DNA of 34,655 nucleotides from Candidatus Merdisoma merdipullorum. Its GTDB lineage: Bacteria > Bacillota > Clostridia > Lachnospirales > Lachnospiraceae. The notes under the pieces were generated by a model. The model saw only the letters and a list, made by a program, of their open reading frames with translations, was not told the origin of the DNA and searched no databases. Location of the stretch: the NCBI GenBank assembly GCA_018715645.1, contig DVLE01000043.1:1-34655 (forward strand), written 5' to 3'. Shown here piece by piece: positions 28,573 through 34,409 of this stretch; position 1 is the stretch's first letter; every line of letters starts with the position of its first letter. A program made the position numbers and the translations under genes.

Positions 28573-30003
28573 TCAATACTTTACAAGCCCCATCACCAGC
28601 ACCGTCATATCATCCGAAGGTTCCTTTTCCCGGTACTGACGCACCCGGCCAAGAATATAGGACGCAAGTTCCGAGGGGTTCCCCGTCTCATGCTCCATGA
28701 TAATGTCCTTCATCAGACTTTCCTGATGCGCCGCAGGCAAAGCATCCATAACGCCGTCCGTCACCATGATCACCATATCCCCATCATAAAGCTTCTTTCC
28801 CGTGCAGTCCGGATCAAGTTTATGGAACACACCGGCCGGAAGGCTTGTGGACGAAATGGTCTCCACCCAGTTTTCCCGGCGGATAAAGGTTGTGGAGGCT
28901 CCTACTTTCAGGAACTCGCACACGCCCGTATAGAGATCCAGGGACGCAATGTCGATAGTGGAAAACACCTGTGCGTCCGACCGCAGAATCAACGCGGAAT
29001 TGATCATGCGTACCGCCGTCTCTTTGGAAAATCCCGCCTCCAGAAACTGCTCCAGCAAATCGATGACCAGTTCGCTTTCCCGGTAAGCTGTGATTCCGGA
29101 ACCCATGCCGTCGGACAGGGCGCCGATAAACTGCCCTTCTCTGCAGTGGCGCAGCGAAAAATTATCCCCTGAGATCTTTTCTTTCCCTTTTACCGCTTTC
29201 TCCACTCCGTAGATCACCTGGAAATTCGTCCGTTCCACGAAAAGAACTGTCACTTTCTCGCCTCCGACAAAAGCACGGCTGTCTCTGGCCGGCATCATAG
29301 CCTTTTTCATAAGCTTCGTCAGGGCGGCCGATATATCCTTGACCGCCACGCATCTGCGCCTCCTTGTGCTCATCGTCAGGTACACCTCCTGACGCCTGTG
29401 TTCCTCACTGTAAACCAGCACAGAATAAACCGAAAGTCCCATGGCTTTCAGCTTTCTCCTCAGATGCTCCTCCAGATCCTCGTCATTTCTCGTATCCCAG
29501 GCATGCTCCACAGTGTCCGTCATAATCTGAGCCATCTCGGTAAGCTGCACAGCCATCGCTTCCCTGTTCTCCTCAAGCCTGGTATTCCAGAGAAGACTCA
29601 TTTTCGCCGTCCCATCCAGTACAGCGGCGCCATCCTCCGGCTTGACGTCCGCGCCCCTTTTTCCTTCGCCCTTCATCATCTTTTTCGCCGAAAGTCCCGA
29701 AAAGCTCTGTGCCAGACTGCGGAAGGCAGTCTCATATTCCCGCACTCTTGCGCGAACCGGGCTAAGCCCTTCCTCCTCCGCGGCGAGCGGCAGCGGCCTC
29801 AGCAGCCATTCCATAATACTCCCGCAGATGACCGTCAGCGAGCAGACCAAAAGTCCCTGGGCAAGCCCCAGAATCAGCGCATAGTCCCGCTCCATCTGAA
29901 GCATACCTACGCCAATCTGCATCGCCGCCACGCAGGCTCCCGCCGTGATGCCGTACAGCCAGCCGTAACGGCCGTTTCTTTGCTGTTCTTCTTCCCTTTT
30001 CAT
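28573..30003 (-). CDS. spoIIE: SpoIIE-family PP2C phosphatase with shortened membrane region
   Basis: About 476 residues. The N-terminus has only about two hydrophobic segments (roughly residues 15-62), where Bacillus SpoIIE has about ten. A linker of some 130 residues leads to a PP2C domain: VKGKEKISGDNFSL, GALSDGMGSG (metal Asp), VIMVTDGVMDALP and SDDMTVLVMG. In Bacillus, SpoIIE dephosphorylates SpoIIAA and so activates sigma-F in the forespore. The position next to tilS-hpt-ftsH and the promoter with 21-bp spacing support this being the true SpoIIE rather than a generic Rsb phosphatase. The ATG at 30003 has AGGAGGAG upstream; the reading continues open to 30114 only across the promoter. 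Confidence 0.82.
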   Translation of the reverse strand: MKREEEQQRNGRYGWLYGITAGACVAAMQIGVGMLQMERDYALILGLAQGLLVCSLTVICGSIMEWLLRPLPLAAEEEGLSPVRARVREYETAFRSLAQSFSGLSAKKMMKGEGKRGADVKPEDGAAVLDGTAKMSLLWNTRLEENREAMAVQLTEMAQIMTDTVEHAWDTRNDEDLEEHLRRKLKAMGLSVYSVLVYSEEHRRQEVYLTMSTRRRRCVAVKDISAALTKLMKKAMMPARDSRAFVGGEKVTVLFVERTNFQVIYGVEKAVKGKEKISGDNFSLRHCREGQFIGALSDGMGSGITAYRESELVIDLLEQFLEAGFSKETAVRMINSALILRSDAQVFSTIDIASLDLYTGVCEFLKVGASTTFIRRENWVETISSTSLPAGVFHKLDPDCTGKKLYDGDMVIMVTDGVMDALPAAHQESLMKDIIMEHETGNPSELASYILGRVRQYREKEPSDDMTVLVMGLVKY

Positions 30004-30048
30004 TATCCTGCTCCTCCTAATCTTCTGTGTGTGTCTGTGTGATTGGGT

Positions 30049-30081
30049 ATTATAGAGGACAGAAAATGAATAATTTGTCAA
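30049..30081 (-). promoter_or_regulatory. spoIIE promoter with 21-bp spacer and 0A-box-like sites
   Basis: TTGACA (30081-30076) and TATAAT (30054-30049) on the minus strand are both perfect, but 21 bp apart instead of 17. The -35 overlaps TTGTCAAA (30075-30082, plus strand), matching the Spo0A box TTGTCRAA; TTGTCTAA (30114-30107, minus strand) is a second near-match 32 bases upstream. In Bacillus, spoIIE and spoIIG have the same kind of stretched, Spo0A-activated sigma-A promoter. Confidence 0.75.
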
Positions 30082-30154
30082 ATCACAGAACTGAAAATTG
30101 GAAATTTTAGACAATTCAGGACATAGATTTCCTTTTCTGAAGAATCTCAGAACA

Positions 30155-30979
30155 TCATAAAAGCTTAGAAGCCGCCAAAAGCTCCTCTGCAGTCCGATTG
30201 TACACAGGATGCCGCACGTAAGGCGCGATCTGACAAAGGGGCTTCAGAACGAAGTCCCTCTTGTGCATCTCAAGATGAGGAATATGAAGCTCTTCCTCAT
30301 CCAGGATCAAATCATCATACAGCAAAATATCCAGGTCAAGAGTCCGCGGTCCCCAACGCACGAGCCGCTCCCGCTTTGCCTCGCGCTCAAGCTCATGAAG
30401 CCTCTCAAGAAGCTCATGAGGCGTAAGCAGCGTCCGAATCTTCATGGCTCCGTTCAGAAAATCATCCTGCTCTACGCCGCCGTAAGGCTCCGTAACCAGA
30501 AAATCTGAGACGTCAAGGACCTGGCATCCCCTTGTGGCCCGCAGTCCCTCCACGCCGAGACGCAGATTGGCCTCCTTATCTCCCAGATTGGAGCCCAGGG
30601 CGATATAGGCCGTATGCCAGCCCCGCTCAATCTCTACGGACACTGTCTTCAGCGGAAGTCCCACCGGAGCCCAGGGCTTCTTGATTTCAAGACACACCTT
30701 CTCCAATCCCTGCGTCTGAAGGAGCAGCTCCCAGGCCAGGCGTTCCGCCACCGTCTCCAGCAGCTTCCAGGTGTTCTTCTCCACAAAATCATGGATGAAC
30801 CGGCTGACCTCTCCATAATGGATGGACTTCGTCAGATCATCCGTCTTTCCTGCTTCCCGTGTGGAGGTATAGAGAACGGCTGAGATCACGAACTTCTGTC
30901 CCAGCACATTCTCCTCAGGAAACACTCCGTGTTTTGCAAATACTTCAAGATCCTTTATATATATTTTATCGTAATTCAT
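30155..30979 (-). CDS. folBK: Dihydroneopterin aldolase / HPPK bifunctional fusion
   Basis: About 274 residues in two parts. Residues 1-118 are dihydroneopterin aldolase (KIYIKDLEVFAKHGVFPEEN, ... KNTWKLLETVAERLA, ... LEIKKPWAPVGLPLKTVSVEIER). From about 122 on is 6-hydroxymethyl-dihydropterin pyrophosphokinase (AYIALGSNLGDKEANL, VTEPYGGVEQDDFLNGA, RWGPRTLDLDILLYDD). It converts dihydroneopterin to hydroxymethyl-dihydropterin and activates it for FolP. The ATG at 30979 overlaps the folP end by 14 bases, with AGGAGAGG upstream. Last gene of the folate operon. Confidence 0.94.
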   Translation of the reverse strand: MNYDKIYIKDLEVFAKHGVFPEENVLGQKFVISAVLYTSTREAGKTDDLTKSIHYGEVSRFIHDFVEKNTWKLLETVAERLAWELLLQTQGLEKVCLEIKKPWAPVGLPLKTVSVEIERGWHTAYIALGSNLGDKEANLRLGVEGLRATRGCQVLDVSDFLVTEPYGGVEQDDFLNGAMKIRTLLTPHELLERLHELEREAKRERLVRWGPRTLDLDILLYDDLILDEEELHIPHLEMHKRDFVLKPLCQIAPYVRHPVYNRTAEELLAASKLL

Positions 30980-31796
30980 ATACACCCTCTCCTGCCGCGA
31001 GTATAGCCTCCGCCATTCGGACTGCCCGAAGATTTTCCTTCACATCATGGACACGCACAAAGGCGTACTTTTTCAAAACCGCAAAGACCGTCGTCACCAG
31101 CGTCCCCTCAAGCCGCTCGTCAGCCGGGAGATCAAGAGTCAGGCCGATGACGGACTTCCGGGACGCGCCAAGAAGCATCGGATAGCCCAGCTCATGGAAG
31201 CGTTCCAGGTGACAGAGTGTTTCCAGGTTCATCTCCCTTGTCTTTCCAAAGCCGACGCCCGGATCGAGGATGATTTTATCGTCGGGAATCCCCGCCGCTT
31301 TCGCAAGCTCCACGCACTCCTGCATCTCTCTAAGCATATCCGGAAAGAAATCCTGATACTGCGCCCTTTCCTTATTGTGCATGAGACAGCAGGCCGCTCC
31401 TGACCGGGCGATCAGCTCCGCCATCCGCGAATCGTATTTCAGTCCCCAAATATCATTGACCAGGTCCGCGCCCGCATTCAGCGCCGCTTCCGCCACCTTC
31501 GCTTTGTAAGTATCTATGGAAACCGGAAGAGCAATCTCTCTTTTCACCGCCTCGATCACAGGAACGATGCGGGAGATTTCCTCCTCCTCCGTGATCTGCT
31601 GATGCCCCGGCCTTGTGGACTCGCCGCCAATATCGATAATGTCCGCCCCTTCTTCCGCCATTTCCCAGGCATGAGACAGGGCCGCCTCCCTCTGATTCCA
31701 CTTGCCTCCATCCGAGAAGGAATCCGGCGTGACATTCAGGATTCCCATGATATAAGTTTTGTTTTTTACGTCAAATTCTCTGTTGCCTATCTTCAT
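30966..31796 (-). CDS. folP: Dihydropteroate synthase
   Basis: About 276 residues, TIM barrel. Conserved pieces: YIMGILNVTPDSFSDGG, EEGADIIDIGGESTRPGH, PVSIDTYKAKVAEAALNAGADLVNDIWG, LMHNK, IILDPGVGFGKT, LLGASRKS and the C-terminal VRVHDV. It joins hydroxymethyl-dihydropterin pyrophosphate with p-aminobenzoate and is the sulfonamide target. The ATG at 31796 (GGAGA 7 bases upstream) overlaps the stop of the HD gene by 4 bases (ATGA); an open reading to 31865 lies inside that gene. Confidence 0.96.
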   Translation of the reverse strand: MKIGNREFDVKNKTYIMGILNVTPDSFSDGGKWNQREAALSHAWEMAEEGADIIDIGGESTRPGHQQITEEEEISRIVPVIEAVKREIALPVSIDTYKAKVAEAALNAGADLVNDIWGLKYDSRMAELIARSGAACCLMHNKERAQYQDFFPDMLREMQECVELAKAAGIPDDKIILDPGVGFGKTREMNLETLCHLERFHELGYPMLLGASRKSVIGLTLDLPADERLEGTLVTTVFAVLKKYAFVRVHDVKENLRAVRMAEAILAAGEGVYELR

Positions 31797-32305
31797 AATG
31801 TAATCTCCAAATTCTTTTTTGTCTCCGGCCAATCGCATATTTCCCGAACCGGACAGGCAAAACAATTCCGGGACAGCTTATCCGCCCGGTAAAAGATGCC
31901 CTCCAGCCCATTTTGTCCCTTCGTTCTGTGACTGCGTATGAGATGAAGAATCCGCTCTTTCTCGTCCTCTGAAAATCCACAGTCTCTCAAGATTCCTTCC
32001 GCAATCCCGGCGCTGGCCTCCTCGTGAGGGATGCCCTGCTCATACTGCAGATGACGGCCGATGTCATGTAGCAGCCCCGCCGCGTATAAAAGCTCCTTTA
32101 TCCGCTCTCTGTCCGCCTTTTTATCCGGCAGACTCCCCTCCTCCAGCGCCAGGATATAGGAAAGCCTCGCCACGTCCAGAAAGTGTTCCGGCGTATGACG
32201 GCAAAATTCTCTTGTCTTTTCCAGAGTCCTGATTTGCCGGAGGCAGTCCTGATATATCTTGTGACACCAGATACGGTTTATGCGCTCCATTTTCTTCTGT
32301 TCCAT
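31793..32305 (-). CDS. HD-domain phosphohydrolase within the folate operon
   Basis: A 170-residue HD-superfamily protein. Metal ligands are visible in order: His in HTPEHFLDVARLS, the HD pair in AAGLLHDIGRHL, His in QGIPHEEAS, His in LIRSHRT and Asp in YRADKLSR. A C-terminal cysteine pair follows (NCFACPVREICDW). The gene lies between folE and folP with a 4-base ATGA overlap to folP and 12 bases to folE, so it is firmly in the folate operon. No known function is certain. The pathway step between FolE and FolB, removal of phosphates from dihydroneopterin triphosphate, has no other candidate here. Alternative: a general nucleotidase such as YfbR/YqeK relatives. Confidence 0.75.
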   Translation of the reverse strand: MEQKKMERINRIWCHKIYQDCLRQIRTLEKTREFCRHTPEHFLDVARLSYILALEEGSLPDKKADRERIKELLYAAGLLHDIGRHLQYEQGIPHEEASAGIAEGILRDCGFSEDEKERILHLIRSHRTKGQNGLEGIFYRADKLSRNCFACPVREICDWPETKKNLEITL

Positions 32306-32317
32306 TATACCGCGCCC

Positions 32318-32878
32318 CTATCCCTGTTTCACCATAGACAGAAAACGGTTCTGAAGCTCATAATTGTCCTGGAACACACCCGTCGTCACCAGAGTCACAG
32401 TCTTGCTTCCCGGCTTTTTGATCCCGCGCATGGTCATGCAGGTATGCTCAGCCTCCAGCATCACGATCACACCCTGGGGATTCAAGTTCTCTTCCAGAGC
32501 CTCGGCAATCTGAGCCGTCATCTTTTCCTGGATCTGCGGTCTTCTGGCAAATACATCCACGGTCCGGGCCAGCTTGCTGAGGCCTACGACTTTTCCGTTC
32601 GGCAGATACCCGATATGCGCTTTTCCATAAAAGGGGAGTAAATGATGTTCACAGACAGAATAAAAGGTAATATCCTTTTCAATGACAATATCGTTTCGCT
32701 CCACAGAAAACTGCTTTTTCAGATGCACCGACGCATCCTCATAAAGCCCTCCGTAGATCTCGCTGCACATGCGGGCGATCCGGTCCGGTGTCTCCAGAAG
32801 TCCTTCCCGGCTTATATCCTCGCCTATGCCTTCCAGCATAAGCTCGACGCCCTTCTTAATCTTCTCATAATCCATCAT
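32318..32878 (-). CDS. folE: GTP cyclohydrolase I
   Basis: A 186-residue type I enzyme. The zinc site is [30 protein letters not shown], with the second Cys in [34 protein letters not shown] and [18 protein letters not shown] are also typical. It converts GTP to dihydroneopterin triphosphate, the first folate step. The ATG at 32878 is followed directly by a second ATG; AAGGAGG lies 11-12 bases before the first, in the loop of a small hairpin. First gene of the operon, under a THF riboswitch. Confidence 0.96.
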
Positions 32879-32886
32879 AAAGAAAA

Positions 32887-32906
32887 CACACCTCCTTCAA
32901 TGTGTG
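32887..32906 (-). promoter_or_regulatory. Small hairpin presenting the folE ribosome binding site
   Basis: CACAC (32906-32902) pairs with GTGTG (32891-32887); AAGGAGG of folE is in the 10-base loop. A further possible stem, CAATAT/ATATTG (32964-32959 with 32940-32935), lies between it and the riboswitch. These may form the expression platform. Confidence 0.45.
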
Positions 32907-32965
32907 ACAGAACATATGACGAAATATCCCTTCACAATATGAGATGCGTTATTATCTTATATTGC

Positions 32966-33062
32966 TGCAACGGGTGCGGTTCCCATATCGTAAGACTGGC
33001 TTTTCGTTTCGACGGCAACTCCCCATCCGCTGAACACTTGACGCATGAAAACCTATTTTGCA
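32966..33062 (-). promoter_or_regulatory. Tetrahydrofolate (THF-I) riboswitch upstream of folE
   Basis: In minus-strand order: P1 TGCAA (33062-33058); P2 GGTTTTCAT (33053-33045) with ATGGGAACC over 9 bp; the conserved GCGTCAAGTG (33044-33035); P3 TTCAGCG (33034-33028) with CGTCGAA (33014-33008) around loop GATGGGGAGTTGC; ACGAAAAG; and the conserved GCACCC (32977-32972), then TTGCA closing P1. Layout and core bases match the folE/folT THF riboswitch as I remember it (GCGTTAAGTG, ACGAAG, GCATCC). Confidence 0.78.
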
Positions 33063-33086
33063 TATTATTCTTTTGTTTGGTATAAT
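33058..33086 (+). promoter_or_regulatory. Promoter of the DUF4026-type gene
   Basis: TTGCAT (33058-33063), 17 bases, TATAAT (33081-33086). It overlaps the oppositely directed folE promoter; the two -10 boxes form TATAATcaaaATTATA. Confidence 0.7.
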
Positions 33087-33090
33087 CAAA

Positions 33091-33118
33091 ATTATAGCAC
33101 ACCATAGCCGGTATGCAA
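33091..33118 (-). promoter_or_regulatory. Promoter of the folate operon
   Basis: TTGCAT (33118-33113), 16 bases, TATAAT (33096-33091) on the minus strand. It places the start near 33084, just before the riboswitch. A second possible promoter (TTGATT 33089-33084, TAATAT 33067-33062) would start inside P1 and is less likely. Confidence 0.65.
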
Positions 33119-33170
33119 GAGAAAAGTTAGAATTTTACGCTGCCCTTAACCCGTACAGGAGGACACAACT

Positions 33171-34409
33171 ATGAGCCGACCTTTATCTCAAATGCTGGCG
33201 ATCCCCGCCAGCCCCGACGCCCTGCATGACCCGGAAGAACTGCTGCGCCGTCTGAAAGCCACCGGAGCCTTCCAGCTCCAATCCGCTCAAATCCGGGACG
33301 GAAGCCTGATCGCAGAGATCGCTTCCGGCGGAGAGACCTTCCACGCGGAAGCATACCCTCTGGAATTTCAGATTCCGGAGCTTTACCGCTGCCAGCACCT
33401 CTTTCCCGATGTGGATATAGAGGCCATAGAGCGGGCTCAGCTTGGACTCGCCGTGGAAATGGAATTCAACAAAAATCCGCTGACATCCTACCATCTCCAG
33501 CTCAAGCTTATCTGCACCCTTGTACCGAATCTGCTGGCCATTCTGGATGACAGCTCGGAAAAAATCCTGTCCGGGCGATGGGCTCTGCTTGCCGCGCAGT
33601 CACGGGTAGCGCCTGCTCCCCGTTATCTCTACACCGCTCAGGCCGTATCCGGCGAGGACGACTGCGTCTGGCTCCATACTCACGGCCTGAATCGCTGCGG
33701 CTGCCCGGAGCTTGAAATCCTGGGCTCCACCAAGGAGACATATCAGTCTCATTACCATGTGATGGAAACCCTGGCCAACCGTCTCCTTGACGAGGATGAA
33801 TTGCCTGAATGGGAGGAACCTTTCTTTCTGGCCTACGCGGCCCAGGACATCCCTCTTATCGTCACACTCATTCCCTGGAGGGATGCGGTAGAGCATTATC
33901 CTGAGGAGATGACGGGAGGAAAGGCTGACCGTGCGGAAGGACATAACGACTATACCTGCGCCATATTTGTCTATCCTTCCGAGGAAAGCATCGACAAGGG
34001 AGAATATTCCTCCCTCTCTATCTATGATGAGCTTTTACAGGATAACCCCATTTATATGATCACTACCTCCGAGACCAACCGGATGCACGATCTGGCGGCG
34101 GAGCGTCTGCCCTATTTCATCTCTGCTTTTCAGGACAAGCGCAATAAACTTCTGGGAAAATTCGGTCTTCTCATCGACGAGGAGCATCGCACAGAGGATA
34201 ACTGCCGGGAACATATCTGGTTTGAAATTCTGGACATCAGGGAGAACCGCTTCCTGGCCCGTCTCACCCAGGAGCCCTACTACGTAAGCGGCGTCCACGA
34301 AGGATACGAATGTGAGTTTACGCCGGAGGATTTGACAGACTGGCTGATCTTTACGCCGGAGAGACGGATCGCTCCGGATGACGTGTATATTCTGGAACTC
34401 TCCTCTTAA
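33171..34409 (+). CDS. DUF4026/DUF2314-type protein of unknown function
   Basis: A 412-residue soluble protein with no signal peptide or membrane helix. The central region contains SHYHVMETLANRLLDEDELPEWEEPFFLAYAAQDIPLIVTLIPW; the C-terminal ~90 residues (HIWFEILDIRENRFLARLTQEPYYVSG...YECEFTPEDLTDWLIF) resemble the DUF2314/YegJ fold. I recall similar proteins annotated DUF4026 in gut Firmicutes, with no known role. It is rich in acidic residues. AGGAGG lies 8 bases before the ATG, and the promoter at 33058-33086 is close to consensus. It is single-gene, plus strand, followed by an inverted repeat and a bidirectional terminator. Confidence 0.65.
   Translation: MSRPLSQMLAIPASPDALHDPEELLRRLKATGAFQLQSAQIRDGSLIAEIASGGETFHAEAYPLEFQIPELYRCQHLFPDVDIEAIERAQLGLAVEMEFNKNPLTSYHLQLKLICTLVPNLLAILDDSSEKILSGRWALLAAQSRVAPAPRYLYTAQAVSGEDDCVWLHTHGLNRCGCPELEILGSTKETYQSHYHVMETLANRLLDEDELPEWEEPFFLAYAAQDIPLIVTLIPWRDAVEHYPEEMTGGKADRAEGHNDYTCAIFVYPSEESIDKGEYSSLSIYDELLQDNPIYMITTSETNRMHDLAAERLPYFISAFQDKRNKLLGKFGLLIDEEHRTEDNCREHIWFEILDIRENRFLARLTQEPYYVSGVHEGYECEFTPEDLTDWLIFTPERRIAPDDVYILELSS

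Follow-up and report, generated by a model that had tools for sequence, protein, structure and literature searches.

The folate operon of Candidatus Merdisoma merdipullorum raises the question of what an HD-domain phosphohydrolase is doing among the genes of folate synthesis, and whether it could be the phosphatase acting on dihydroneopterin triphosphate, the role put forward for it in a preliminary description of the window (the whole stretch of 34,655 nt of DNA that was analysed). The minus strand carries a THF (class I) riboswitch aptamer (32966..33062; Rfam RF01831, 80.3 bits, E 3.6e-17) that lies upstream of the operon and is followed by folE, the HD gene, folP and a folB-folK fusion, an arrangement that had been read by eye and is confirmed with curated models and RF01831. 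The first gene, folE (32318..32878), encodes a GTP cyclohydrolase I of 186 aa (PF01227, 245 bits; TIGR00063, 228.9 bits with a cut-off of 181.6), and is followed by the gene for an HD-domain phosphohydrolase of 170 aa (31793..32305; PF01966, 51.4 bits, cut-off 22) that is a FolQ2 candidate. Then come folP (30966..31796), encoding dihydropteroate synthase (DHPS; TIGR01496, 313.8 bits, cut-off 162.6), and the fusion of dihydroneopterin aldolase and HPPK (30155..30985; PF02152 and PF01288, with TIGR00525 and TIGR01498 above cut-off). The HD gene had been given the interval 31793-32878, which takes in folE as well; it does directly follow folE, with 12 nt between them in the sequence, and the ATGA overlap described for it is present, the ATG of folP (31796-31794) lying on the HD stop codon TGA (31795-31793).

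Promoter-like sites in 29900-33300 exceed the shuffled expectation (9 against 2.7), terminator-like sites in the same region are near chance (4 against 2.9 expected) and 32290-33110 contains no inverted repeats. One promoter-like site (10/12) at 32332-32304 on the minus strand runs from the end of folE into the start of the HD gene, and an internal promoter at this junction is possible. The next downstream gene on the same strand is a 513-aa ORF (28573-30114), the C-terminal half of which resembles a SpoIIE/PP2C-type phosphatase by eye. The loci of 20 relatives were scanned and 7 have a THF riboswitch; this is not a measure of prevalence as the loci were hand-picked and many have little DNA upstream of folE.

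The idea that such proteins act in folate synthesis has a history. HDIG-superfamily proteins encoded in folate clusters were named "FolQ2" by de Crecy-Lagard et al. in 2007 and proposed as alternatives to FolQ, the example being CPE1020 of Clostridium perfringens (PMC1971073); FolQ2 was later used in the folate pathway rule of a 2019 reconstruction (PMC6593275), and an assignment for the E. coli Nudix enzyme has followed (PMC5526541). Within the open-licence literature folQ2 or CPE1020 is named only in PMC1971073 and PMC6593275, and no report that an HD protein had been assayed on dihydroneopterin phosphates was found in that literature, although one could exist elsewhere. The HD protein of the window is very probably the FolQ2 candidate put forward in 2007 for the removal of phosphates from an early folate precursor in many Clostridia. 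Like FolQ2 its family consists of HD/HDIG proteins encoded in folate gene clusters, a Clostridium relative (L083, Clostridium acidisoli) has the order HD-folP-folBK, and the deeper relatives occur in fhs-HD-folP clusters, which ties the family to FolQ2 since fhs is named in the legend of the FolQ2 clusters (PMC1971073). We infer that the family is homologous to CPE1020. The prediction itself dates from 2007 and is not new here; what differs is that the Cys motif, FolC fusions and genome-wide co-occurrence described below are not met in the available text of PMC1971073.

The HD protein contains the residues of the dinuclear motif (H41, H80-D81, H94, H126 and D142), the pattern "H ... HD ... H ... 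H ... D" having been described as the sign of a dinuclear HD site (PMC8177086). It had been noted that all HD metal ligands are kept, and this is true well beyond the window: over 187 loci (181 distinct sequences) H80, D81, H94, H126, D142, R146, C148, C151 and C157 are invariant in 187/187, H37 and H41 are kept in 186/186 aligned loci with one locus gapped at H41, and C35 is Cys in 184/186, part of this conservation being built in as the loci were admitted by a match to the family profile. The Cys residues of the protein are C35, C148, C151 and C157. A tail of the form R-x-C-x2-C-x5-C is present in 187/187 family loci, and the Cys-rich tail that had been thought to set this protein apart is therefore real (C148, C151, C157) but is a family-wide signature, not special to this gene. 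As a control, ten HD proteins of the order that come next after the family were used, all scoring under the family cut-off, five of them picked for a match beyond model position 140 (G117, G027, G101, G245, G211) and five from among the stronger remainder (G163, G037, G180, G072, G294); neither R-x-C-x2-C-x5-C nor the looser C-x2-C-x4-7-C occurs in any of the ten, and no fol gene was detected near any of them within the fetched stretches.

PF01966 is matched by 58/58 members of set A2, and the narrower HDIG model TIGR00277 gives 22.3 bits on the window protein, under its cut-off of 27.6. Besides its similarity to Cas3/Csm1-type HD models the HD domain has below-cut-off similarity to part of NF045665 (DVU_1551 NTP transferase family, E 5.4e-5), as does L130:2462-4168 (E 4.4e-10). 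The AlphaFold2 model of the protein has a mean pLDDT of 94.1 and a pTM of 0.90. Its closest solved fold in a Foldseek search is 2PQ7 (E 7e-4), followed by SAMHD1 chains and YpgQ with weak E-values. The same structure, a predicted HD superfamily hydrolase from an uncultured Thermotogales bacterium, is the closest by profile (E 4.4e-11), but the profile match stops short of the Cys tail, at position 136. Reading a function from the closest structure was dropped, as the title of 2PQ7 assigns none and only 1/322 Foldseek matches has E<=0.001.

Several known enzymes can be compared with the HD protein. YqeK (COG1713, symmetric Ap4A hydrolase/diphosphatase) has the same six-ligand dinuclear HD motif and acts on phosphoanhydrides, but neither a Cys tail nor a folate context is described for it in the available text of PMC8177086 and PMC9426524. 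None of the 13 NCBIfam matches of the HD protein at E<=1 is a YqeK model, the nearest being NadD-type (E 0.04). The family profile reaches 2OGI (SAG1661), which we take to be a YqeK, at E 0.013. FolQ/NudB, the Nudix dihydroneopterin triphosphate pyrophosphatase, shares the proposed reaction but has an unrelated fold, and no Nudix domain is matched in the HD protein by Pfam or NCBIfam at E<=1. MptB is an archaeal HD enzyme and is alike by description in that it acts on a dihydroneopterin phosphate; its substrate is the cyclic phosphate made by MptA, whereas here the upstream enzyme is FolE, encoded by the first gene of the operon.

The distribution of the HD protein among genomes follows that of DHPS. 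A genome was scored for DHPS by a PF00809 match of E<=1e-50 in an ORF under about 410 aa, ORFs >1200 aa (methionine-synthase size) being left out, and for the HD protein by its best match to the family profile, at E<=1e-29 in the order (the values leave a gap from 1.1e-29 to 1.9e-16) and at E<=1e-17 in the class and phylum (weakest class member 3.5e-50). Across 295 genomes of the order 74 have the HD protein and 86 have DHPS, and the HD protein is found in 73/86 genomes with DHPS compared with 1/209 without. For the class outside the order, 373 genomes as tabulated and 372 on a recount, the corresponding figures are 56/97 and 0 of about 275, no HD protein without folP being found in that sample; four doubtful genomes (G550, G515, G455, G475) were left out of the DHPS count, and the three of them that were fetched have just a FolP-like ORF. 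Related genomes are not independent and Fisher values therefore overstate the support, but the pattern also holds within f1, the family to which the window belongs and in which many genomes have no DHPS-grade match (HD protein in 17/22 genomes with DHPS, 0/26 without). In the phylum 30/109 genomes have the HD protein, own genome included. FolE was found in 70/75 order genomes searched (the 74 with the HD protein plus G236), and four of the five lacking it (G184, G263, G231, G290, G236) are 78-92% complete.

The link between the HD protein and DHPS is not absolute, since DHPS occurs without the HD protein in 13/86 genomes of the order and 41/97 of the class outside it, and since a single genome (G184) keeps the HD protein without DHPS or FolE. 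The sole PF00809 match of G184 has E 1.1e-29, far weaker than any DHPS counted. Its HD protein is a canonical member of the family (L135:4712-5215), and the gene stands by itself, flanked by two very long ORFs that are penicillin-binding-protein-like by eye. The 13 include G236, scored as lacking the HD protein as a contig end truncates its HD gene; in G144 and G175 the gene is split over contigs and the fragment on the folP contig was taken. In its own genome the HD protein is the sole full member, being the one full member among three family-profile matches at E<=1e-6, and the next matches in a single-query search have E 0.018 and 0.12.

Linkage to folP is close throughout the group. The order-wide scan found that 28 of the best 29 relatives adjoin folP, as do all of the best 80 in the named collection, 77 of these 80 with folE directly before; both sets are biased to close kin. 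In genomes of the order the HD gene is within 300 bp of the folP match in 69/73, and the remaining four have it within about 420 bp (G014, G128) or about 3.6 kb away (G021, G035). Outside the order it lies inside about 3.5 kb of folP in 51/56 genomes of the class with the HD protein; the five exceptions have it about 3.7 kb away (G497), on another contig (G486) or far away or on another contig (G492, G612, G595). The last three belong to family f55, have small genomes and retain both folP and the HD gene in spite of their being unlinked, and this supports a functional tie between the two without an operon. At the level of the phylum 18/19 loci besides that of the window adjoin a folP-like ORF, and where the order is fhs-HD-folP the three upstream neighbours tested with Pfam are all formate-tetrahydrofolate ligases. 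The nineteenth locus (L238) is beside a glutamine amidotransferase and a gene of the anthranilate/aminodeoxychorismate-synthase type.

The association is not confined to one arrangement, as the gene orders include folE-HD-folP, folC-HD-folP, folP-folE-HD-folBK, folE-folP-folB-folK-HD and folE-HD-folBK; in L022 the HD gene lies downstream of ORFs that are pabB- and pabC-like by eye, giving the order pab-type genes-HD-folP. Furthermore, FolC and the HD protein are fused in single reading frames (FolC::HD) in seven genomes, five of family f11 (G168, G287, G064, G263, G206) and two of f35 (G341, G482), the domains having been identified by Pfam in G168, G287 and G064 and FolC by TIGR01499 in G168. 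The fusions in f11 and f35 look independent, since other f35 genomes keep folC and the HD gene as separate neighbours. In most of L240-L256 and in class loci such as L139 and L157 the folP frames are about 400 aa and not about 275, and in these lineages dihydropteroate synthase seems to have an extra part.

Taken from genome comparison, the co-occurrence, the linkage in several gene orders and the FolC fusions place the HD protein in the folate pathway and give strong support to the prediction of a dedicated folate-pathway enzyme family. Of the role first proposed for it, this part is strongly supported, whereas the specific step is plausible and the preferred, though putative, reading.

An absence of FolQ as an argument for this step has fared less well. 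Four Nudix proteins are encoded in the genome of this organism, which is 87.4% complete; the best reaches 25.1 bits on the NudB-type model against a cut-off of 103, so that no NudB-type DHNTPase is above the curated cut-off, and the NudB model NF006961 has no match at E<=1e-6. This absence is weak, however, because the genome is 87% complete and the specificity of Nudix proteins is hard to read from sequence, and also because NF006961 is above cut-off in 0/66 genomes, 33 with and 33 without the HD protein. It is above cut-off in only 1/14 control genomes, few DHNTPases being visible to it; L. lactis, the source of FolQ, is among the control genomes that it matches, not necessarily above the cut-off.

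An exchange of the HD protein for a Nudix protein was considered and rejected. In G209, which lacks the HD protein, a Nudix protein (L124:3310-3921, PF12535 (Nudix_N) and PF00293) occupies the slot between folE and folP. Relatives of this protein at E<1e-30 are no rarer where the HD protein is present (10/40 genomes, sampled from 130) than in genomes with DHPS only (7/40, sampled from 53 and including G209), and NF006961 is above its cut-off in neither kind. The stretches around folP in genomes lacking the HD protein were scanned for FolE, FolP, FolB, FolK, FolC, HD and five Nudix queries, and with a Nudix-box pattern. A Nudix gene in the folE-folP slot was found only in G209 among 12 such stretches of the order (13 with G236), the five Nudix queries had no match in any of 100 class stretches, and 41 class genomes with DHPS have neither the HD protein nor a detected Nudix in the folP stretch. 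In these 41 folE is <=100 nt from folP in 27, a wider gap is present in 3 and the stretch has no folE in 11; as the 27 have no room for a gene between the two, the step is done elsewhere there and could be here too. The co-occurrence search that had been suggested as a check has shown that the HD protein tracks folP, but has brought to light no complementary distribution of Nudix proteins.

The function of the HD family is very probably pterin phosphate hydrolysis, as a putative assignment, and dihydroneopterin (tri)phosphate is, we consider, fairly probably what the HD protein hydrolyses. Its two-metal centre would activate water against the triphosphate chain of the 7,8-dihydroneopterin triphosphate made by FolE, the cut most likely falling between the alpha and beta phosphates to give the monophosphate and PPi, and the enzyme may possibly continue to dihydroneopterin, which would then be used by FolB. 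C35, C148, C151 and C157 may together make up a structural metal site by which the pocket is shaped or closed. To our knowledge the gene for dihydroneopterin monophosphate phosphatase is unassigned in most bacteria. A bolder version, itself rather improbable, is that the HD-Cys enzyme takes the triphosphate all the way to dihydroneopterin, stepwise or in one cut that removes tripolyphosphate, and so replaces both FolQ and the monophosphatase, with Zn or Fe-S at the Cys site tuning the pocket in anaerobes.

A division of labour in which a general Nudix enzyme makes the monophosphate and the HD protein removes the last phosphate only is unlikely; the four Nudix proteins of the own genome would suit it and several HD enzymes are monophosphatases (YfbR, YGK1), but these two are listed as mononuclear (PMC8177086) whereas the motif of the HD family is six-ligand and dinuclear. 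Also quite unlikely is a role in repair or proofreading, in which the HD protein would hydrolyse damaged or mis-made phosphates of the folate pathway and would not be an obligate step. Such a role has been assigned to dinuclear YqeK, which in most mycoplasmas forms a fusion with NadD and elsewhere has its gene clustered with that of NadD (PMC9426524), and it would accommodate both the FolC::HD fusions and the genomes with DHPS that do without the HD protein; the near-perfect restriction of the family to folate-making genomes suits a pathway step at least as well. The precedent of YqeK, the HD domain of which cleaves 8-oxo-GTP and NaAD (PMC9426524), serves the phosphohydrolase and repair readings alike, and a fusion partner that acts as late as FolC does not point specifically to the product of FolE as the substrate.

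Two further roles would take the protein away from phosphate hydrolysis altogether. The family-wide Cys set and the FolC fusion would be in keeping with a protein that regulates folate enzymes or partners them structurally and does little catalysis, which is very improbable given that none of the six metal ligands varies in aligned loci, a constancy that argues for catalysis. Least credible of all is a diiron oxygenase-like enzyme of the MIOX/PhnZ type acting on a pterin: the motif H..HD..H..H..D is common to oxygenases (PMC8177086), but the known pathway has no step needing one. The hosts moreover are Clostridia, which are mostly anaerobes.

Relative to the available text of PMC1971073 and PMC6593275 what is new is how widely the protein and DHPS occur together, along with the fusions to FolC and the Cys signature, which bring strong genomic support for a dedicated folate-pathway HD family. 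With so sharp a co-occurrence and with its residues defined, a hypothesis put forward nearly twenty years ago can be tested directly. If a large proportion of the Clostridia that make folate do use such a dedicated enzyme, it would complete their pathway, would correct metabolic models and may provide a possible antibacterial target.
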